Below, piece by piece: positions 230-34,577 of a stretch of 34,577 bases of DNA; within the stretch, counting starts at the first letter, position 1; every line of letters begins with the position of its first letter. The DNA is taken from assembly GCA_903910705.1 (NCBI GenBank), contig CAIWAN010000003.1, forward strand, positions 1 through 34,577. Reading direction: 5' to 3'. The position numbers and the translations under genes were made by a program. The notes beneath the pieces are model-generated. The model saw only the letters and a list, made by a program, of their open reading frames with translations. It was not told the DNA's origin and did no database searches. The DNA comes from an uncultured Candidatus Marinamargulisbacteria bacterium. GTDB lineage: Bacteria; Margulisbacteria; Riflemargulisbacteria; GWF2-35-9.

Positions 230-2119
230 ATGAATAAGAAAATCGTAGCGACCTCAAAGAAACAGGATCTTGCGAAATTGGGAAAGGCTAATAATCTGAA
301 GGATTTATGTCCAAGTGATTCTCGTCTCGATCAAGTCATCCAATTGCTCAAGAAAGATAGATTTTGGGATGCAGCTCTTCTGATAGGAGAATTCTATAAC
401 TCCTTAGATAATAAGACTTATAGTGAAGCCATAAAATTGTCTAAAGAATTGATTGATGACATTCGTGCGACGATGGGTGTTCGTGCAAAAAACCGTAAAG
501 ACGCAACGACTGTCGTGTTCGGTACCTCTGGGTGGCGTGGAAAGATCGGGGAGGATTTTACCGTTTACAATGTTCATAAGGTCACTCGAGGAATCATCGA
601 TATGATGCGAACAGATGAATTCTTGAAAACAAATGGATATTTGAGCTTTGAGGATGTTCAAAGTCATGGAATCGTTGTATTCCGTGACAATCGTTTTATG
701 GGTGACGAATTTATGGATGTCGCGATGAAAGAACTCGCCAATGCAGGTATCAAAATATATTTTGCAGGGGAATGTCCTACAGGCGTCGGTTCAGCCTTGG
801 TAACCGAACTTGGTGCTGCCGGTTCGATCAACTTTACTCCGTCACACAATCCAATGGATTATGCGGGATTAAAGTTCAATCCAGCCGATGGGGGGCCAGC
901 GGATACAAACCTGACCAATATCATAGAGCAAAAATCGAAGCAGTACATGTCACTAGGTGATCATTTTATTGCTTCAAATCCGAATATTAAAGAAATCAAT
1001 GGGGGGCGAAATTATGTTGAGGTTAATGATGCTAAAATATTTTCAGCATATATCGAAAAACAGTTTGCTTCAGGTAAAGGCTTGCTCGATATTGTTTCAA
1101 TTAGAAAATTTCTAAGTGAAAAGAAAGATGACCTCTATATTTTAGTGGATAATATGCACGGTTCGTCCCGAGGGAAACTTCAGGAAATATTAGGAAATGA
1201 TCTTGTTGCTGATCTTGTCAAAAATGGTGCCATGGAGTTTATTAATACTGAAGACGATTATTCTTTCCATGGGGTTAAACCTGAACCTAATGAAAAGAAT
1301 CAAAAAGTGATCATCGATCGAGCCAAGGCAAAGGTAGAAGCAGAGCCAAAACGTCGTATGACCTTAGTCGTTTCATTGGATCCAGATGCTGATCGTATCA
1401 GATTTGGAACGGCCAACTCTGATATCAACATGAATACGTTTGGAGCGATCGCTTACGGTTATTTGCTTAAAAAAGGGATTTTGGGGCCTATTGCAACTAC
1501 ATTGCCATCCTCGAAGTTTGCTGTCGCTATTGCAAATATATATAATCAAAAAGTTTATGAGACATTGGTCGGGTTTAAGTGGTTCCGACCACTTATTGAT
1601 GCTCTTGTAAAATATGAGGAATCTGATGGGATCTCTTTTATGGGGCATACTCAGGAAAAGGATGGTATCGCCGGATTTTTGATGGCTTTACAAATTATGA
1701 AAGATCAAAATAAGGATATTTACTCTTTCTTCAAGGATCTTCAGGCGGAGTTCGGATATTATTATGCTAAACAAGCCCCACAAGAGGTTAAGAGTATTAC
1801 AATTGATGAGTGGCGGGTTTTAAGAAAAGACATTGAAAAAGATCTGCAGCTTAAGTACCAAGATGCGAAAACATTTTGGATCAATGGTGTCGAAAAAAAG
1901 GTTGTTAGTACAAGAGTCGATGATGGAATTATGATGGTTTTTGATGATAACAGTTGGATATTAGTAAGATCATCAGGTACGGAAGCAAAGTTTAGAGTTT
2001 ATTATGAAATTACGAGTAGAACTGAATTAACAGAAGCACAAGTCTCCCAAACTCAGGAACAATATGCAAATGCTGGCTTGGCTATTTTGAACCAAGCTTT
2101 ATCAGTCAAAGGTCGATAG
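230..2119 (+). CDS. Phosphoglucomutase/phosphomannomutase family protein
   Basis: This is an alpha-D-phosphohexomutase, a cytoplasmic enzyme moving phosphate between C1 and C6 of a hexose phosphate and linking glycolysis to cell-envelope sugars. The four family signatures appear in order. TSGWRGK is near residue 100. The phosphoserine loop TPSHNP is near 205. The Mg-binding DPDADR is near 385. The phosphate-binding RSSGTEAKFR is near 585. The usual GEESG sugar-binding loop is replaced by GHTQEKDG, so the substrate may differ from that of E. coli Pgm. At 629 residues it exceeds the common 450-550, because about 90 unrecognised residues precede the first catalytic domain. The ATG has a strong SD at 216-223. 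It stands alone with a hairpin after the stop. Family is certain; sugar specificity is not. Confidence 0.9.
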   Translation: MNKKIVATSKKQDLAKLGKANNLKDLCPSDSRLDQVIQLLKKDRFWDAALLIGEFYNSLDNKTYSEAIKLSKELIDDIRATMGVRAKNRKDATTVVFGTSGWRGKIGEDFTVYNVHKVTRGIIDMMRTDEFLKTNGYLSFEDVQSHGIVVFRDNRFMGDEFMDVAMKELANAGIKIYFAGECPTGVGSALVTELGAAGSINFTPSHNPMDYAGLKFNPADGGPADTNLTNIIEQKSKQYMSLGDHFIASNPNIKEINGGRNYVEVNDAKIFSAYIEKQFASGKGLLDIVSIRKFLSEKKDDLYILVDNMHGSSRGKLQEILGNDLVADLVKNGAMEFINTEDDYSFHGVKPEPNEKNQKVIIDRAKAKVEAEPKRRMTLVVSLDPDADRIRFGTANSDINMNTFGAIAYGYLLKKGILGPIATTLPSSKFAVAIANIYNQKVYETLVGFKWFRPLIDALVKYEESDGISFMGHTQEKDGIAGFLMALQIMKDQNKDIYSFFKDLQAEFGYYYAKQAPQEVKSITIDEWRVLRKDIEKDLQLKYQDAKTFWINGVEKKVVSTRVDDGIMMVFDDNSWILVRSSGTEAKFRVYYEITSRTELTEAQVSQTQEQYANAGLAILNQALSVKGR

Positions 2120-2148
2120 TTCAAATTTGCCTGTAATCTGACGCTATA

Positions 2149-2172
2149 GGCCAATGGCTAACCCCATTGGCC
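2149..2172 (+). terminator. Terminator-like hairpin after phosphohexomutase gene
   Basis: A perfect 9-bp stem, GGCCAATGG at 2149-2157 and CCATTGGCC at 2164-2172, closes a 6-nt loop 29 nt after the stop codon. Only a weak T-rich stretch follows (TTCGTT), so it may terminate inefficiently. Confidence 0.6.
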
Positions 2173-2223
2173 TTCGTTAAATAACCCGCCTATTCCGCAA
2201 TATCTTGATGAAAGGACGGAGTC

Positions 2224-2283
2224 TTGCATTTCCTCGTTCCCTCATGCTACCATTTCTTTAACATAACAAAAAAGTTATATTAA
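2224..2283 (+). promoter_or_regulatory. Candidate abiE promoter and operator
   Basis: TTGCAT at 2224-2229 and TACCAT at 2248-2253 form a weak -35/-10 pair with an 18-nt spacer. TG one base before the -10 makes it an extended -10. Just downstream is an inverted repeat, TTAACATAAC at 2258-2267 and GTTATATTAA at 2274-2283, with 9 of 10 positions complementary across an A6 spacer. AbiEi antitoxins are known to repress their own operon by binding inverted repeats at the promoter, so I infer this is the operator. An SD-like AAGGAAA follows at 2282-2288. Confidence 0.45.
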
Positions 2284-2292
2284 GGAAACGAC

Positions 2293-2934
2293 ATGAAATA
2301 TCTGGATTTCAAAAAAGCCTTTAATTTTTTGCCCTATTTTACGCCTTCTCAGTTGGTGGGGGAGGGTTGGGCGCTGCCGACTATTCGTAAGCAACTGTTG
2401 GATTGGGAAAAGAAAAACAACGTTATTCAATTAAAAAAGGGTCTTTATTGTTTTTCGGATTCGACGTTGCCTTTTCAGCGTGAGGTTATTGCTAATAGGT
2501 TGGTTTCACCGTCCTATATCAGTTTGGAGTTCGCTTTGTCTCGATATGGTCTGATCCCCGAGTTTGGGGGAGCGATTACCTCGATAACCACTAAAAAACC
2601 ACAACACTTTCAAACCGAGCTAGGTGCTTTTTCATATCGCCATGTGACACTTTCCTTGTTTGATGGGTTTATTGAGGAAAGGCTTCCTTCAGGACTAGCC
2701 TATTTGATGGCGAAACCTGAAAAGGCAGTACTCGATTTCTTGTATTATCGTCTCTCTGATATCAACCCCGAGGACAGCCAAATATTTGATTCTTCTTTTC
2801 GTTTTCAGAACCTAGACATCTTAGATAGGGATCTATTGCTGCGATATGCGAAAGCAAGTCGAGTCAAAAAACTGGTCTCCGTGGTTGAAAACTTGAGACA
2901 ATTTATCTCAAAGGAAGGGTATCGCCCGCTATGA
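2293..2934 (+). CDS. AbiEi-type antitoxin/transcriptional regulator
   Basis: A 213-residue protein resembling AbiEi-family antitoxins. The N-terminal ~60 residues look like a winged helix-turn-helix (LVGEGWALPTIRKQL, then a basic wing KKGLYCF). The following segment (VIANRLVSPSYISLEFAL, then a domain ending PEKAVLDFLYY) is typical of this family. AbiEi represses its operon and antagonises the partner AbiEii nucleotidyltransferase in a type IV toxin-antitoxin/abortive-infection system. The stop codon overlaps the partner start in ATGA, so the pair is translationally coupled. A palindrome lies between promoter and start. Assignment rests on domain order plus the AbiEii-like partner. Confidence 0.75.
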   Translation: MKYLDFKKAFNFLPYFTPSQLVGEGWALPTIRKQLLDWEKKNNVIQLKKGLYCFSDSTLPFQREVIANRLVSPSYISLEFALSRYGLIPEFGGAITSITTKKPQHFQTELGAFSYRHVTLSLFDGFIEERLPSGLAYLMAKPEKAVLDFLYYRLSDINPEDSQIFDSSFRFQNLDILDRDLLLRYAKASRVKKLVSVVENLRQFISKEGYRPL

Positions 2935-3737
2935 TTGAAAATCTGCGTCAACAAATACAATCGGTCAGCTCGGTTGATATGAAATTGTCGATCGTTCGTG
3001 AATATTTACAGTTACTGATCCTTCGTATCATCGAAGAACGTGGCTACTCAAAACATATTGCTTTTGTCGGCGGCACCTTGCTTCGCATTTTATATGGACT
3101 CAACCGGTATTCAGAGGATCTTGACTTTTCGTTGGTTCAGCCTCAAGACTTTTCCTTTGATAATATGCTGAAATCGATCGAAAAAGACCTTCGATTGTAT
3201 GGTTTTTCCGTTTTATTGACAAAAAAAGACACCCATATCGTCATGAATAGTTTTATCAAGTTCCAAGATGTGCTGTTCCCGTTAGGGTTGTCGACACAAA
3301 AGAGTCAAATTTTATCGATCAAATTAGAGATCGATTCTCGCCCACCCAGTGGTTATCAAACCGAGTCAACCCTGATTCAGAATCATTTCTTGCTGAACGT
3401 GTTCCATTTTGATAAGCCTTCTCTTTTTGCGGGGAAACTTCATGCTATCTTATGTAGGCCTTACGCAAAAGGGCGTGACCTGTATGATCTGGTCTGGTTT
3501 TTAGGGCAACCCATCACCCCAAATTATTATTTGCTAAGCAATGCCTATGAACAAACCGAGCATGAGCGGATTGATTTTGACGCTAGCGTTTTATCACAAA
3601 AACTGACCTCAAAAATCGAAGGACTGGATTTTAGCAAAATTCTGCCCGATATCACACCATTTTTAATCAATACGAATGAACAACGGTTTTTAGCGAAAGA
3701 GGTTATCCTTCAGGCCATCAAGCAATCGCTACCCTAA
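2931..3737 (+). CDS. AbiEii-type nucleotidyltransferase toxin
   Basis: A 268-residue nucleotidyltransferase of the AbiEii/AbiGii family. The polymerase-beta-like signature is visible at residues ~45-67: VGGTLLRILYGLNRYSEDLD, with the GG(T) loop and the D-x-D metal pair (EDLDFS). The C-terminal part contains KLHAILCRPYAKGRDLYDLVW-type sequence, normal for the family. AbiEii toxins transfer nucleotides and halt growth, in some cases during phage infection. The start overlaps the antitoxin stop by 4 nt. The 3' end overlaps the convergent trmB gene by 20 nt. Such tight packing suggests either long residence or insertion directly against trmB. Confidence 0.8.
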   Translation: MIENLRQQIQSVSSVDMKLSIVREYLQLLILRIIEERGYSKHIAFVGGTLLRILYGLNRYSEDLDFSLVQPQDFSFDNMLKSIEKDLRLYGFSVLLTKKDTHIVMNSFIKFQDVLFPLGLSTQKSQILSIKLEIDSRPPSGYQTESTLIQNHFLLNVFHFDKPSLFAGKLHAILCRPYAKGRDLYDLVWFLGQPITPNYYLLSNAYEQTEHERIDFDASVLSQKLTSKIEGLDFSKILPDITPFLINTNEQRFLAKEVILQAIKQSLP

Positions 3738-4335
3738 ATTCCACCCGATAGATCGGCCACTGATTCTTTAGGCATTGCGCCTCGAAATAGGACTGTATGC
3801 CCAGTGGGTTAGGGTGATGAACGCCGTTCTCGTTGAGGATAATGGTGAAGTGGCCGTTCTCGTTGATATAGCTGAGCGTATCAAGATACAGGTTCTCGAC
3901 ATCGGTCTGAAAGAGTATCGTTGCTCCGTGTTTAAGTTTAGCAGGGATCTCGCTTAGGAACTTGGCGTTAATGATACGTCGTTTGTGATGGCGGGGCTTG
4001 AACCAAGGATCGCAAAAGAACGTCGTGACTCGGTCGAGGCTATTGTCGGGGATAATATCGAGGTTCATCAGTGAGCTAGCGGCAACAACCTTGCAATTGG
4101 GTAAGGCCTGCTCTTCGATCAGCTTCTCGATCTTCTCTACAAGCGGCGTGCGGACTTCTAATCCCAGATAATTCCAGTCGGGGTTTTGCTTGGCCGATTC
4201 GAGAATAAACTCCCCATGAGCAAACCCAATATCGAGATGAAGCGGCTGTTTTGGGGCAGGGTATTGTTCCTCTATTTGCAATTTAGGCATTTCTCTGTGA
4301 AAATTGAACGGGTTTGTGTGCTTTCTAACGCGCAT
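3718..4335 (-). CDS. trmB: tRNA (guanine-N7)-methyltransferase
   Basis: TrmB makes m7G46 in tRNA using S-adenosylmethionine. The SAM-binding loop is LDIGFAHGEF (residues ~33-42) and the acidic strand is GLEVR. The substrate/catalytic segment CDPWFKPRHHKRRI (~109-122) matches the family PDPW-x-K-x-RHxKRR motif, with C in place of the first P. The length of 205 residues is normal. The ATG (4333-4335 complement) is preceded by AAGGG, which belongs to the end of the dispersed repeat at 4343-4383. The repeat therefore seems to supply this gene's ribosome binding site. It is convergent with, and overlaps, the toxin gene by 20 nt. Confidence 0.88.
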   Translation of the reverse strand: MRVRKHTNPFNFHREMPKLQIEEQYPAPKQPLHLDIGFAHGEFILESAKQNPDWNYLGLEVRTPLVEKIEKLIEEQALPNCKVVAASSLMNLDIIPDNSLDRVTTFFCDPWFKPRHHKRRIINAKFLSEIPAKLKHGATILFQTDVENLYLDTLSYINENGHFTIILNENGVHHPNPLGIQSYFEAQCLKNQWPIYRVEFRVAIA

Positions 4336-4342
4336 GAGCAGA

Positions 4343-4383
4343 ACCCTTCCGCCCTTCGGGCACCTTCCCTTGGCAAGGGAAGG
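4343..4383 (-). repeat. Dispersed repeat, left inverted copy beside DUF559 gene
   Basis: Read on the minus strand, this 41-nt element begins with the palindrome CCTTCCCTTGCCAAGGGAAGG, continues GTGCCCGAAGGGC, and ends GGAAGGGT just before the trmB start. Related copies in the opposite orientation lie at 4752-4813 and 9193-9235. With the 4752 copy it forms inverted repeats around the DUF559 gene. Confidence 0.7.
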
Positions 4384-4401
4384 AGAGTGTGATTAGCTAA
4401 T

Positions 4402-4815
4402 ATGAAACGAATATACAACAGGAGTGATCAAAAAGAAAAGCGAAAGATTCTTCGTCAGAATATGACGGAAGCTGAAATCGTTTTATGGAATGCCTTACGA
4501 ACGAGTGATTTGATAAGTTGTAAGTTTGTCCGACAATATAGCGTTGAAGCTTTTGTGTTAGATTTTTATTGTCGACGACTAAAGTTAGCGATTGAAGTTG
4601 ACGGAAGCATTCATGATGATTTATCTGCAAAAGCTTATGATGCGCAACGAACGAGAATATTGTGTCGATATGGTATTAAAGTTGTTCGCTTCACAAACGA
4701 CCAAGTGCTACAATCAATCGGCACTGTCATTGATACAATAAAGCATCTTATCCTTCCCTTGCTAAGGGAAGGTGGCAGCGTGGACCGTGAAACGGTCGGG
4801 CTGACGGAAGGGTAA
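4402..4815 (+). CDS. DUF559/Vsr-like endonuclease-fold protein
   Basis: A 137-residue protein of the DUF559 family, distantly related to Vsr and PD-(D/E)XK nucleases. Visible hallmarks are RQNMTEAEIVLWNALR near the N-terminus, KFVRQYSVEAFVLDFYC with the acidic D, and LAIEVDGSIHD with the E-x-D metal-binding pair. The end is GIKVVRFTNDQVL. The last ~20 residues are read out of the flanking repeat and are probably not part of the fold. An SD-like AAGGAG at 4380-4385 is rather far from the ATG. The gene sits between inverted copies of a short repeat, which suggests a small mobile or selfish unit. The biochemical role of DUF559 proteins is largely unknown. Confidence 0.7.
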   Translation: MKRIYNRSDQKEKRKILRQNMTEAEIVLWNALRTSDLISCKFVRQYSVEAFVLDFYCRRLKLAIEVDGSIHDDLSAKAYDAQRTRILCRYGIKVVRFTNDQVLQSIGTVIDTIKHLILPLLREGGSVDRETVGLTEG

Positions 4816-4864
4816 GTATTTTGAAACAGCGTGGACCGTGAAACGGTCGGGCTGACGGAAGGGT
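4752..4864 (+). repeat. Dispersed repeat, right copy with exact 38-bp direct duplication
   Basis: The element starts with the palindrome CCTTCCCTTGCTAAGGGAAGG at 4752-4772. It contains an exact 38-bp unit twice, at 4776-4813 and 4827-4864 (offset 51 bp). Each unit carries the hairpin GACCGT-GAA-ACGGTC and ends GGAAGGGT. The first copy encodes the C-terminus and stop of the DUF559 gene. The second ends 5 nt before the TTG start of map and provides its SD. Confidence 0.85.
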
Positions 4865-4869
4865 GTCTC

Positions 4870-5619
4870 TTGAAAAACATTCTCATCAAAACCCCGCAGC
4901 AGATCGAGGGGATTGCGGCGGCTGGGAAGCAAGTCGCCAACTTCTTTGATTTCATTCGGCCCCACGTTAAGGCTGGTGTTAAAACCATTGAGTTGGACAA
5001 GTTAGCCGAACAATTCGTCGAACGGGAAAAGGGGGTCGCTGCGTTTCGAGAGGTACCCAATTATTTCCATAGCATTTGCGTCTCCATCAACGAACAGATC
5101 GTCCACGGTATCCCAGGCGAACGGGTCATCGCGGAGGGCGACCTCGTCAAAATTGACTTCGGCTTTAAAAAGAACGGCTTTATTGGCGACGCGTGCCGCA
5201 CTTTTGTTGTGGGCGAGGTGCCGAATCGAGTCCGTGAGTTGGTCGAGGTGACCGAAACCGCCCTGAATAAGGCGATCGAGGTTTGTCGGATCGGCAAACG
5301 CATTGGGGATATCGGCTTTACAATTCAGCGTTATGTCGAAAGCCATCGATTCAGTGTGGTACGAGAATATGTCGGCCATGGGGTTGGCATCGAATTGCAC
5401 GAGCCGCCGAACGTCCCTCATTATGGCCACAAAAACACCGGAACCGAACTCAAAGAAGGCATGGTGATTGCCATAGAGCCCATGATAAACATGGGGACGT
5501 GGCGTTCGAAGCCCTTGGCAGATGGTTGGACGGTCGTTACAATGGACGGCAAATGGTCGGCTCAGTTTGAGCATACGATCGCCATCACCAAAGACGGCCC
5601 AAGGATACTAACCATTTAA
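4870..5619 (+). CDS. map: Type I methionine aminopeptidase
   Basis: Removes the initiator methionine from nascent proteins in the cytoplasm. With the TTG start at 4870 the protein has 249 residues and all metal/catalytic residues fall at family positions: H79 (VHGIP), D96 (IDFG), D107 (GDACRT), H170 (GHGVG), E203 (AIEPM) and E234 (QFEHT). An upstream in-frame GTG at 4831 would add 13 residues encoded by the repeat. I reject it, because GGAAGGG at 4857-4863 is well spaced for the TTG. It is probably the first gene of an operon with the BCCP-like gene and the cyclase. Confidence 0.92.
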   Translation: MKNILIKTPQQIEGIAAAGKQVANFFDFIRPHVKAGVKTIELDKLAEQFVEREKGVAAFREVPNYFHSICVSINEQIVHGIPGERVIAEGDLVKIDFGFKKNGFIGDACRTFVVGEVPNRVRELVEVTETALNKAIEVCRIGKRIGDIGFTIQRYVESHRFSVVREYVGHGVGIELHEPPNVPHYGHKNTGTELKEGMVIAIEPMINMGTWRSKPLADGWTVVTMDGKWSAQFEHTIAITKDGPRILTI

Positions 5620-31801: not shown

Positions 31802-32905
31802 ATGAGATTGAAAATAATAGTGGGGGTGTTGGTCTTAATTTTTGCGAGTCAGGCAATGGCTATTACAAAGAAAGACGGTAATGCCGCGATTCATATTTAT
31901 TCGAGAACCGTGACAGAAGGATTAACGATCTCGCAAAATGGTAACTTGGGGGTTGGGACAACCAACACTACTGAGCGACTCAATGTAGCGGGTGGAGCTG
32001 TATTTTCTGGTACGATCACTGCGAATTTTTTTGTTGGGAACTTTCTCCCTTCTGCGGTGACGGTATCCAATACACTCGTTGTTCAAGGCATAACAACTCT
32101 GGCTACCTTAAATGGAACAGCGGCTAGGTTTTCTGGTGACTTAACGGTTAACGGGCAAGCCATCGTAGGATCGTTGACAACGAATGGAACGATCTCGGCA
32201 AACAAGTTAGCGGTAAGCGGAATAACCACGTTAGCGACCGTGAATGCAACAGATGGAAGTCTATCTGGTGTATTGAGTGTGGTCGGACAAGCAACGGTAG
32301 GATCGTTGACAACGAATGGAACGATCTCGACAAACAAGTTAGCGGTAAGCGGAATAGCCACGTTTACGACCGTGAATGCAACGGATGCAAGTCTATCTGG
32401 TGTATTGAGTGTGGTCGGACAAGCAACGGTGGGATCGTTGACAACGAATGGAACGATCTCGGCGAATAGTTTATCTATTGCGAATCAAGCGGTGGTCGGT
32501 TCCTTAACTACGAATGGAACGGTTAGCGCAAGTATTCTTGCAGGAACGAATGGAACAATAAGTTCAAAACTTGCAGTAGGTGGCGTCTTTGCAGCGAATA
32601 GTCCTCTTCAGGTCAATGGTGCGATCGCTACAGCAGTTGGTAATGGTGCAGGCGCAACACTTTCAAGTTCTGACAGTGTTTTTCTTAGCACAACGGGAAC
32701 AGTTATCCTCCCAGCTGCTGCGGCAGTGACGGGTCGCCAGTATACTATCAAGAAGACCGATAGTTCTGCGGCAGGGGATGTAACGATTGATCCCAATGGC
32801 GCGGAGACCATCGAAGGTGCTTTAACTTATGTTTTGACAACTTTGGATGAATTTGTAGTCATTGTTAGTAATGGAACGAACTGGCTTGTTACTGGAGGCA
32901 ACTAG
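31802..32905 (+). CDS. Modular secreted stalk protein B with 44-residue repeats
   Basis: 367 residues; SD AAGGAG before ATG 31802. A signal peptide (LKIIVGVLVLIFASQAMA) leads to a base module HIYSRTVTEGLTISQNGNLGVGT...FSGTITANFFVGN, also found at the start of the protein at 33026. Tandem 44-residue units (GSLTTNGTISANKLAVSGIT...) follow at about residues 95-240. The C-terminal tip SGRQ-like TGRQYTIKKTDSSAAGDVTI...DEFVVIVSNGTNWLVTGGN matches stalk protein A. Composition (Thr, Ser, Val, Gly, Ala) fits a beta-structured extracellular fibre. No enzyme signature is seen. Confidence 0.65.
   Translation: MRLKIIVGVLVLIFASQAMAITKKDGNAAIHIYSRTVTEGLTISQNGNLGVGTTNTTERLNVAGGAVFSGTITANFFVGNFLPSAVTVSNTLVVQGITTLATLNGTAARFSGDLTVNGQAIVGSLTTNGTISANKLAVSGITTLATVNATDGSLSGVLSVVGQATVGSLTTNGTISTNKLAVSGIATFTTVNATDASLSGVLSVVGQATVGSLTTNGTISANSLSIANQAVVGSLTTNGTVSASILAGTNGTISSKLAVGGVFAANSPLQVNGAIATAVGNGAGATLSSSDSVFLSTTGTVILPAAAAVTGRQYTIKKTDSSAAGDVTIDPNGAETIEGALTYVLTTLDEFVVIVSNGTNWLVTGGN
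32168..32520 (+). repeat. 132-bp tandem repeats inside stalk protein B gene
   Basis: The sequence GGATCGTTGACAACGAATGG recurs at 32168, 32300 and 32432, an exact 132-bp period (44 codons). The first two units differ at only a few bases, indicating recent duplication or homogenisation. A partial, more diverged unit follows near 32500. Confidence 0.9.
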
Positions 32906-33025: not shown

Positions 33026-34459
33026 ATGCGAAACCCATTCATTCGGCTGATATTCCTTGTCTTCATTTTGTTGTCAGTAGTGGCTTTTCCGATCATTCGA
33101 AAAGCGAGTGATGCAAGTGTTCATATCTACTCGCGAATAGAAGTTCAAGGTATAACCATTTCACAGAATGGGAATGTCGGTATCTGTACCGTATCCCCAA
33201 CCGAGGCACTGTCTGTTTCAGGAAATGGATTATTTTCGGGCACCATTACAGCTAATCGTTTTGTGGGTAATGGCTCTGGCCTGACAAATTTGCCTATTGC
33301 CACCGCCAACTTAGCTTTGACGAGCAACATCGCCATCTCGTTGAATGCCCAAGGGCTGATAGGCGCGATATCGGTTGCCACAGGGAACACCATCATGGCA
33401 ATAACCATTTCAGGCAATGTGGGGATCGGGACAACCGCTCCCACGACGAAGCTTGAAGTCGCCGGCACGGTGAGTGCCTCGGCAGTGGTGGTCAATGGCC
33501 TTGCGAGTGCGGCTAATTTTCTTCCTATTCCGACAGCCAACTGGCCGGACTTTGATGCGGGTTCGCCGTATTTGATCTATGGGGCGTTGTGGGTTGGCTG
33601 GGATGCCACAGCCCAAGTGTGGAAGTACCATAAACAAAACGGGGCGACGGCCCCGCGAGGACTAACCGATCCGGGCAACCCGAACACATGGACGGTGAAC
33701 GGAAGCACGATGGGCTACTTTAACGGCAATCTTTCGAGCCTCCCTTCGGGTACACATATCAACAACAAATATAATCCTGATATGATGGCTTATCGCTGTA
33801 ATCAAGACGACATCCAGATCAAAATAGGATCGGTATGGGTGGATAAATACGCCAATCGTATTCTGGATGTGGGCAGTAGTTATTCGGGCAGTACGCTCAA
33901 GGACGATGGGGCGGACATGCAAGGTAGCGGACAAACGACGTCGCCGTATTGGATGGCGTTCTCGCAAAAGGCGCAATGTAGTACGGGGATGACATGGTTT
34001 ATTGCCCAAATAGCGGCCAACAACGCCGGAAAACGACTGCCCGCCAATGAAGAATGGCAGTCTGCTGCCATGGGTACGGCGCGGAGTGCCGGTAACGGCG
34101 TAGCCAACGGAGATAGTTGGTCGAGTGTTACAGATACGGATCTGTCACGCTATGGTGTTGTCGGGATGGTGGGTAATATCTGGGAATGGGTGGGGACATG
34201 GTGGCAGTCCGGTATAAAGACCACCACCTTTACGCAAGGGGAATCAGCTGCTGCGTGGGGAGCGAGTTATGGGGACGACTATACGTGGAACGTTAATGGT
34301 TCGGCATATGGTAATGCGGGATGGACGAACAACCTCCCCGCTGCGTTGCTTCGTGGTGGCCTTTGGGGCAGCGGGACGAATGTGGGCGTCTTCGCCTTGT
34401 TTGCGTATGACGCTCCGTCGAGTTGTTCTATCATTATCGGGTTCCGGTCTGTTCGCTAG
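33026..34459 (+). CDS. Surface display protein with FGE-like C-type-lectin domain: DGR target protein
   Basis: 477 residues. A signal peptide (FIRLIFLVFILLSVVAF) leads to the base module shared with stalk protein B (HIYSRIEVQGITISQNGNVG... FSGTITANRFVGN) and further fibre segments (ISGNVGIGTTAPTTKLEVAG, ~130-150). The C-terminal half is a formylglycine-generating-enzyme/sulfatase-modifying-factor type fold: RLPANEEWQSAAMGTA (~337), YGVVGMVGNIWEWVGTWW (~377), then RGGLWGSGTNVGVF...GFRSVR at the extreme C-terminus. That ending is the hallmark of DGR-diversified ligand-binding proteins, so this is probably an export-displayed receptor with a hypervariable binding face. No enzymatic role is likely. 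DNA of the C-terminal half is clearly GC-richer than the stalk-coding part. Confidence 0.85.
   Translation: MRNPFIRLIFLVFILLSVVAFPIIRKASDASVHIYSRIEVQGITISQNGNVGICTVSPTEALSVSGNGLFSGTITANRFVGNGSGLTNLPIATANLALTSNIAISLNAQGLIGAISVATGNTIMAITISGNVGIGTTAPTTKLEVAGTVSASAVVVNGLASAANFLPIPTANWPDFDAGSPYLIYGALWVGWDATAQVWKYHKQNGATAPRGLTDPGNPNTWTVNGSTMGYFNGNLSSLPSGTHINNKYNPDMMAYRCNQDDIQIKIGSVWVDKYANRILDVGSSYSGSTLKDDGADMQGSGQTTSPYWMAFSQKAQCSTGMTWFIAQIAANNAGKRLPANEEWQSAAMGTARSAGNGVANGDSWSSVTDTDLSRYGVVGMVGNIWEWVGTWWQSGIKTTTFTQGESAAAWGASYGDDYTWNVNGSAYGNAGWTNNLPAALLRGGLWGSGTNVGVFALFAYDAPSSCSIIIGFRSVR
34352..34456 (+). other. Predicted DGR variable region (VR)
   Basis: Codes residues 443-477. The invariant frame RGG-x-W-x-x-G-T-N...GVFAL-x-x-x-x-APS...IGFR matches the FGE-type DGR consensus as I remember it (RGG-x-W-N-N-G; ALNLNNAPSNS; IGFR). 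Positions where that consensus has Asn are here L, G, S, F, Y, D, S, C, I and I. Their codons (ctt, ggc, agc, ttt, tat, gac, agt, tgt, atc, att) all end in C or T, as expected when AAC/AAT template codons are adenine-mutagenised. The GC-rich 3' end GGGTTCCGGTCTGTTCGC (34439-34456) would serve as the initiation-of-mutagenic-homing site. Template repeat and RT are not in the window. Confidence 0.78.
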
Positions 34460-34470
34460 CAGTTGGCGTC

Positions 34471-34505
34471 CTGCCCCGCTCACTGAGCTTGCCGAAGTGG
34501 GGCAG
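34471..34505. repeat. Hairpin 12 nt after the DGR target stop codon
   Basis: CTGCCCCGCT at 34471-34480 pairs with AGTGGGGCAG at 34496-34505 (one G-T). The 15-nt loop also contains CACT, which can pair with AGTG. DGRs often have a hairpin/cruciform just after VR that aids homing. The inner CACTGAGCTTGCCGAAGTG also resembles a widespread REP-type palindrome, so the role is uncertain. Confidence 0.6.
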
Positions 34506-34545
34506 CACGCCCTTGAACACTTAATGCGGCGCACGGCAGGGTAAT

Positions 34546-34565
34546 CCCCGCCGATCGACGCGGGG
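34546..34565. repeat. Second GC-rich hairpin near window end
   Basis: CCCCGC at 34546-34551 pairs with GCGGGG at 34560-34565 around the palindromic loop CGATCGAC. The window then ends in GCTTGTCGAA, a variant of the motif in the previous hairpin, so a short repeat series may continue beyond the edge. No gene is visible in 34460-34577. Confidence 0.5.
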
Positions 34566-34577
34566 TCGCTTGTCGAA

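Follow-up and report, generated by a model that had tools for sequence, protein, structure and literature searches.

The window, by which we mean the whole 34,577-nucleotide stretch of DNA analysed here, is contig C3 of a MAG of 2,216,436 bp (119 contigs, 97.7% complete). Its right end is also the end of the contig, and the last gene before that end is the one considered here. An earlier note had delimited this open reading frame (33026–34459, 477 aa) and its C-terminal peptide RGGLWGSGTNVGVFALFAYDAPSSCSIIIGFRSVR, both of which translation reproduces, and had interpreted the peptide as a DGR variable region at the tip of a protein with a signal peptide and a fibre stalk. The hydrophobic N-terminus is indeed likely to be a signal peptide, and the stalk matches the Bdellovibrio MAT protein Bd2133 (8ond, phmmer E 1.4e-7), in short stretches only, as well as a PHROG tail fibre (E 4.5e-8). 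The sequence comparisons described below support the DGR interpretation, and the window gene is almost certainly the target of a complete DGR. Besides the variable repeat (VR) of this gene and a second target, the system comprises a template repeat (TR), a DGR-type reverse transcriptase (RT) and an accessory protein in which Avd and MutS domain I are joined (Table 1).

Table 1. Coordinates of the features in the window and of the second DGR of the same genome (contig C21)
Feature	Position	Strand	Basis
Predicted DGR target gene, 477 aa (signal peptide, stalk, FGE/C-lectin-type tip)	33026..34459	+	translation; Pfam; C118 paralogue
Likely signal peptide, residues 1–28	33026..33109	+	hydrophobic N-terminus, by reading the sequence
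Fibre-like stalk, about residues 40–157, GNVGIGTTAPTTKLEVAGTVSA type	33143..33496	+	phmmer to 8ond; PHROG tail fibre
FGE-sulfatase-type domain, residues 303–476, VR at its end	33932..34453	+	PF03781 E 7.4e-11
Variable repeat (VR), 122 nt	34339..34460	+	15/16 differences from TR at TR adenines; TR = C39:4507–4628, minus
Invariant VR 3′ end, identical to TR, IMH-like	34437..34460	+	VR/TR comparison
GC-rich inverted repeat, candidate retrohoming hairpin/cruciform	34465..34511	+	DNA fold; role inferred from BPP-1 (PMC3240598)
141 nt identical to C118 end and C39 start (reverse complement); junction to Avd-MSL, RT, TR	34437..34577	+	
Stalk paralogue, 367 aa, other C-terminus, not DGR target	31802..32905	+	43% identity to target residues 10–163
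C21, TR	837..944	−	
C21, RT	950..1951	−	
C21, Avd	1951..2298	−	
C21, target	2369..3439	−	

Template repeat, variable repeats and reverse transcriptase

A DNA search of the genome with the 3′ end of the target gene returned near-copies on two further contigs, C39 and C118. The copy on C39, the TR, is 122 nt long, starts 10 nt past the RT stop codon and translates as RGGNWNNGTNVGVFALNANNAPSNWNNNIGFRSVR, that is AALLRGGNWNNGTNVGVFALNANNAPSNWNNNIGFRSVR, with 11 Asn codons. Of the 122 positions, 16 are mismatched in the VR of the window; the TR has adenine at 26 positions, and 15 of the mismatches fall there (hypergeometric p=1.8e-11). The VR on C118 (12664–12785) has 18 mismatches, every one at a TR adenine (p=1e-15). 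The sole non-adenine difference, at 34426, where a G of the TR is a T in the VR and Trp becomes Cys, counts against the DGR reading. Each of the 11 Asn codons is altered in at least one of the two targets, with 10 of 11 changed on C118. The proposal that Asn had been replaced at ten positions of the window protein holds because ten TR Asn codons have changed there and one, the AAT in GTN, has not; the accompanying statement that the codons at these positions end in C or T is true of all changed Asn codons. The variable region also lies at the 3′ end of the gene as proposed, but it is slightly longer than the 34352–34456 first assigned to it, ending 1 nt beyond the stop codon of the target, with its last 24 nt the same as in the TR. 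The near-copy with adenine-sited mismatches and the DGR-clade RT that the earlier note had told readers to look for both turned up in the same genome, on C39; neither a missing repeat or RT nor a scatter of differences away from adenines was encountered.

Read in the sense of the RT, C39 consists of the 141 nt of the window end, a 220-aa accessory gene, a 355-aa RT gene, the TR, 400 nt of intergenic sequence and stalk-protein genes; the accessory and RT genes overlap by 4 nt, and all frames of the cassette are open. The RT was found by a family search of the genome. Among its solved relatives the Bordetella DGR RT bRT ranks first (8ub7, E=1.7e-61), far ahead of the GsI-IIC group II intron RT at E 1.3e-23. 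The motif LPIGNLSSQ can be read in it and, as judged from its sequence, it is of DGR type. An Rfam search of C39 gave no match. The location of the TR 3′ of the RT was considered as an unusual trait and rejected as such, for no arrangement is more frequent in the nearest genome DGRs, 30 of 48 detectable pairs sharing it. RT matches of E 1e-30 or better occur in 8 of 74 genomes of the phylum, this one counted; none of the four other genomes of the family has an RT of this kind at that threshold, and the element is therefore sporadic.

Two observations concern the stalk genes that follow the TR on C39. Amid them is a pair of small adjacent genes (L007 2229–2935, minus strand) that by eye are nucleotidyltransferase/HEPN-like. 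Some 150 nt just 3′ of the TR region and before a stalk gene (L007 4121–4273) recur on C79 (L307 388–540) with 91.5% identity, and are perhaps a common leader of stalk genes.

Five nucleotides past the VR of the window there is a GC-rich inverted repeat with a DNA fold of −14.8 kcal/mol (z only −2.0) and a loop larger than the 4-nt phage consensus. By analogy with BPP-1, which needs a hairpin at the matching position for efficient retrohoming (PMC3240598), we regard this repeat as a candidate retrohoming hairpin or cruciform.

An accessory protein combining Avd and MutS domain I

The accessory protein matches bAvd at residues 25–113 (E 7.4e-14) and, in frame with it, MutS domain I (PF01624) at residues 134–202 (E 1.1e-11), both above the Pfam cut-off, and its NCBIfam DivGenRetAVD score is 66 bits, below the 80-bit cut-off of that model. 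Against a MutS HMM built without this protein the C-terminal half scores 37.2 bits, and none of 1000 shuffles exceeds 11.2. The Avd half is predicted to fold into a bundle of four helices like that of solved Avd. The predicted structure of the MutS half has low confidence (pLDDT about 60) and its top fold matches, which are to MutS, come at E about 0.1, so the homology of this half rests on sequence. The Phe-X-Glu mismatch motif is incomplete, the stacking Phe being kept and the Glu replaced by Lys. In E. coli MutS the Phe is required for specific DNA binding, and the Glu distinguishes mismatched from matched duplex and signals to the ATPase (PMC3848065).

A MutS-like accessory (MSL, PF01624) encoded with a DGR as a separate gene is already known (PMC10053308, which cites a 2018 survey); here, in contrast, MutS domain I is fused behind Avd in one frame. 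A search of some 360 genomes, in which single-protein scans detect close relatives only, gave no second Avd-MSL fusion in 73 other genomes of the phylum, 248 of the phylum of an Elusimicrobia relative and 40 more, nor was one found among the 160 DGR loci that were the best RT matches, or in viral contigs, phages and plasmids. Just one other MSL was met, a separate and apparently frame-disrupted gene in the Elusimicrobia MAG (L171 600–1396), adjoining an intact-looking Avd, a TR, an RT and a target that resembles the one in the window. The fused accessory is the sole part of the system for which no precedent was found, and is possibly a new variant, the 2018 DGR survey being known through the citing paper only. 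A different joined frame was seen in another genome (G054), where a single open frame on C60 (L060 1216–2061) links the N-terminal portion of an Avd-like protein with the C-terminal portion of a DGR RT, possibly as the product of an internal deletion.

The genome of the host has a full-length mutS-like frame on C8, and the MutS part of the fusion is without the ATPase and clamp domains and without the signalling Glu. It is conceivable, though we think it rather unlikely, that the fusion sets a mismatch-binding module on the DGR RT complex and there holds or shields the mismatched cDNA-VR heteroduplex from host MutS, which would make escape from mismatch repair a built-in function of the DGR.

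Two targets and one contig junction

The second target, on C118, is a 406-aa paralogue in an open frame after ybeY, and like the window protein it has a likely signal peptide, a stalk resembling those of Bdellovibrio MAT fibres and an FGE/C-lectin-type tip. Third-position identity of the two genes at conserved residues is 1.0 inside the VR and 0.29–0.74 elsewhere, depending on the region, and equal third bases throughout the VR are what would be expected if it is recopied from one TR. The TR, accessory gene and RT had been expected to follow beyond the window, in keeping with which the window end and the cassette contig share an exact 141-nt overlap; the overlap fits C118 too, and the physical link between target and cassette rests on a contig overlap common to two targets. 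Since C3 and C118 both end in the opening 141 nt of C39, a length that is probably the k-mer of the assembler, the cassette probably comes immediately after one of the targets, if not both; the other would either be served in trans or have a collapsed second copy of the cassette behind it. One DGR serving several targets has been reported before.

In relatives the order of genes at this locus is ybeY, dgkA-like, corC-like, pyrG. The interval between ybeY and corC contains a short dgkA-like gene in G003 (C84) and G004 (C34), and stalk-protein genes in the sister species G002 (C32) and in the window genome; it is a site where stalk genes sit. No RT like that of C39 was found in G002. Within the window genome, ybeY and the target are the last genes on C118, C91 begins with a stalk gene before corC, and no overlap of C39 with C91 or with the examined part of C116 was found.

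The junction bears directly on how many cassettes there are. A recent duplication may have placed the Avd-RT-TR block after each target, the two copies then being merged by the assembly; each target would be served in cis. Such an event would agree with both target contigs ending in the first 141 nt of C39, and because at least 118 identical nucleotides past the TR/VR homology are unexplained by TR copying, and persist despite diverged gene bodies, a duplicated cassette keeps some plausibility; no second outgoing contig was found at either end of C39, though the MAG may miss short contigs, and on balance we consider the duplication possible but doubtful. Whether the system still works is a separate matter. 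Its sporadic occurrence would suit an element that diversified the VRs in the past and is now inactive, but the RT, accessory and both targets have open frames, no synonymous divergence is seen inside the VR and its 24 terminal nucleotides are identical to the TR, making inactivity improbable. A repeated FGE domain of the usual sort, without any DGR, could draw on the frequency of such domains and on the several stalk paralogues of this genome, but the adenine bias of both VRs, together with a near-copy 10 nt past a DGR RT gene, excludes this explanation for practical purposes.

The window gene as target of a complete DGR is thus the reading that we prefer. By inference from the BPP-1 DGR, a TR-carrying RNA would be copied by an RT-Avd complex with misincorporation at adenines, and the mutagenised cDNA would replace the VR, guided by the invariant VR 3′ end and the downstream inverted repeat. 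The fused MutS domain I probably equips the RT complex with a module that binds mismatches or heteroduplexes, although this part is conjecture. The tip of the secreted fibre-like protein would offer 11 Asn codons for rewriting, and its binding specificity would therefore differ between cells.

Known systems and the fibre tip

The system resembles the DGR of Bordetella phage BPP-1 (mtd, avd, TR, brt) in its adenine-limited TR/VR differences, in having a tip protein gene that ends in the VR, in its RT and Avd fold, and possibly in the inverted repeat after the VR. Unlike in BPP-1, the TR follows the RT, the accessory has an extra MutS domain I, there are two targets, the target is a chromosomal fibre protein rather than a phage tail protein, and the hairpin loop is larger than the phage consensus.

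The same genome has a second DGR, on C21, which shares the order target, Avd, RT, TR and has its own FGE target. It differs in having a plain Avd (115 aa) and an RT 42% identical to that of C39, and in adjoining a resolvase-like gene (3532–4119) and a transposase-like frame (4169–5068). Over the best 70 nt of its VR/TR pair, all 20 differences are adenine differences.

The likeness of the target to Bdellovibrio MAT fibres lies in the stalk sequence and in the presence of related genes with the same stalk and other tips, several paralogues in the genome having the same stalk with other C-termini. According to the available text of PMC10769870, the MAT fibres are adhesins that form trimers and differ in their tips; the tip of Bd2740 has a C-lectin fold and trimerises like Mtd. 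The likeness is limited to short stretches of the stalk, and that text does not mention DGR targeting of MAT. Because the stalk resembles these adhesins, the target is likely to be an adhesive fibre that is secreted and hypervariable at its tip, for which we infer surface display, trimerisation and a ligand.

The system is a genuine DGR of a kind already known, with an accessory variant that is possibly new. A DGR was predicted from reading the C-terminus of one protein, and a search of the other contigs then yielded its template and RT; since the prediction was borne out on C39, a VR cut off at the end of a contig is recognisable even in the absence of its TR. The system links a DGR with fibres whose stalks are related in sequence to the MAT adhesins of Bdellovibrio and whose tips are exchangeable, and a natural fusion of Avd and MutS domain I would let the passage of heavily mismatched cDNA through mismatch repair be tested directly.
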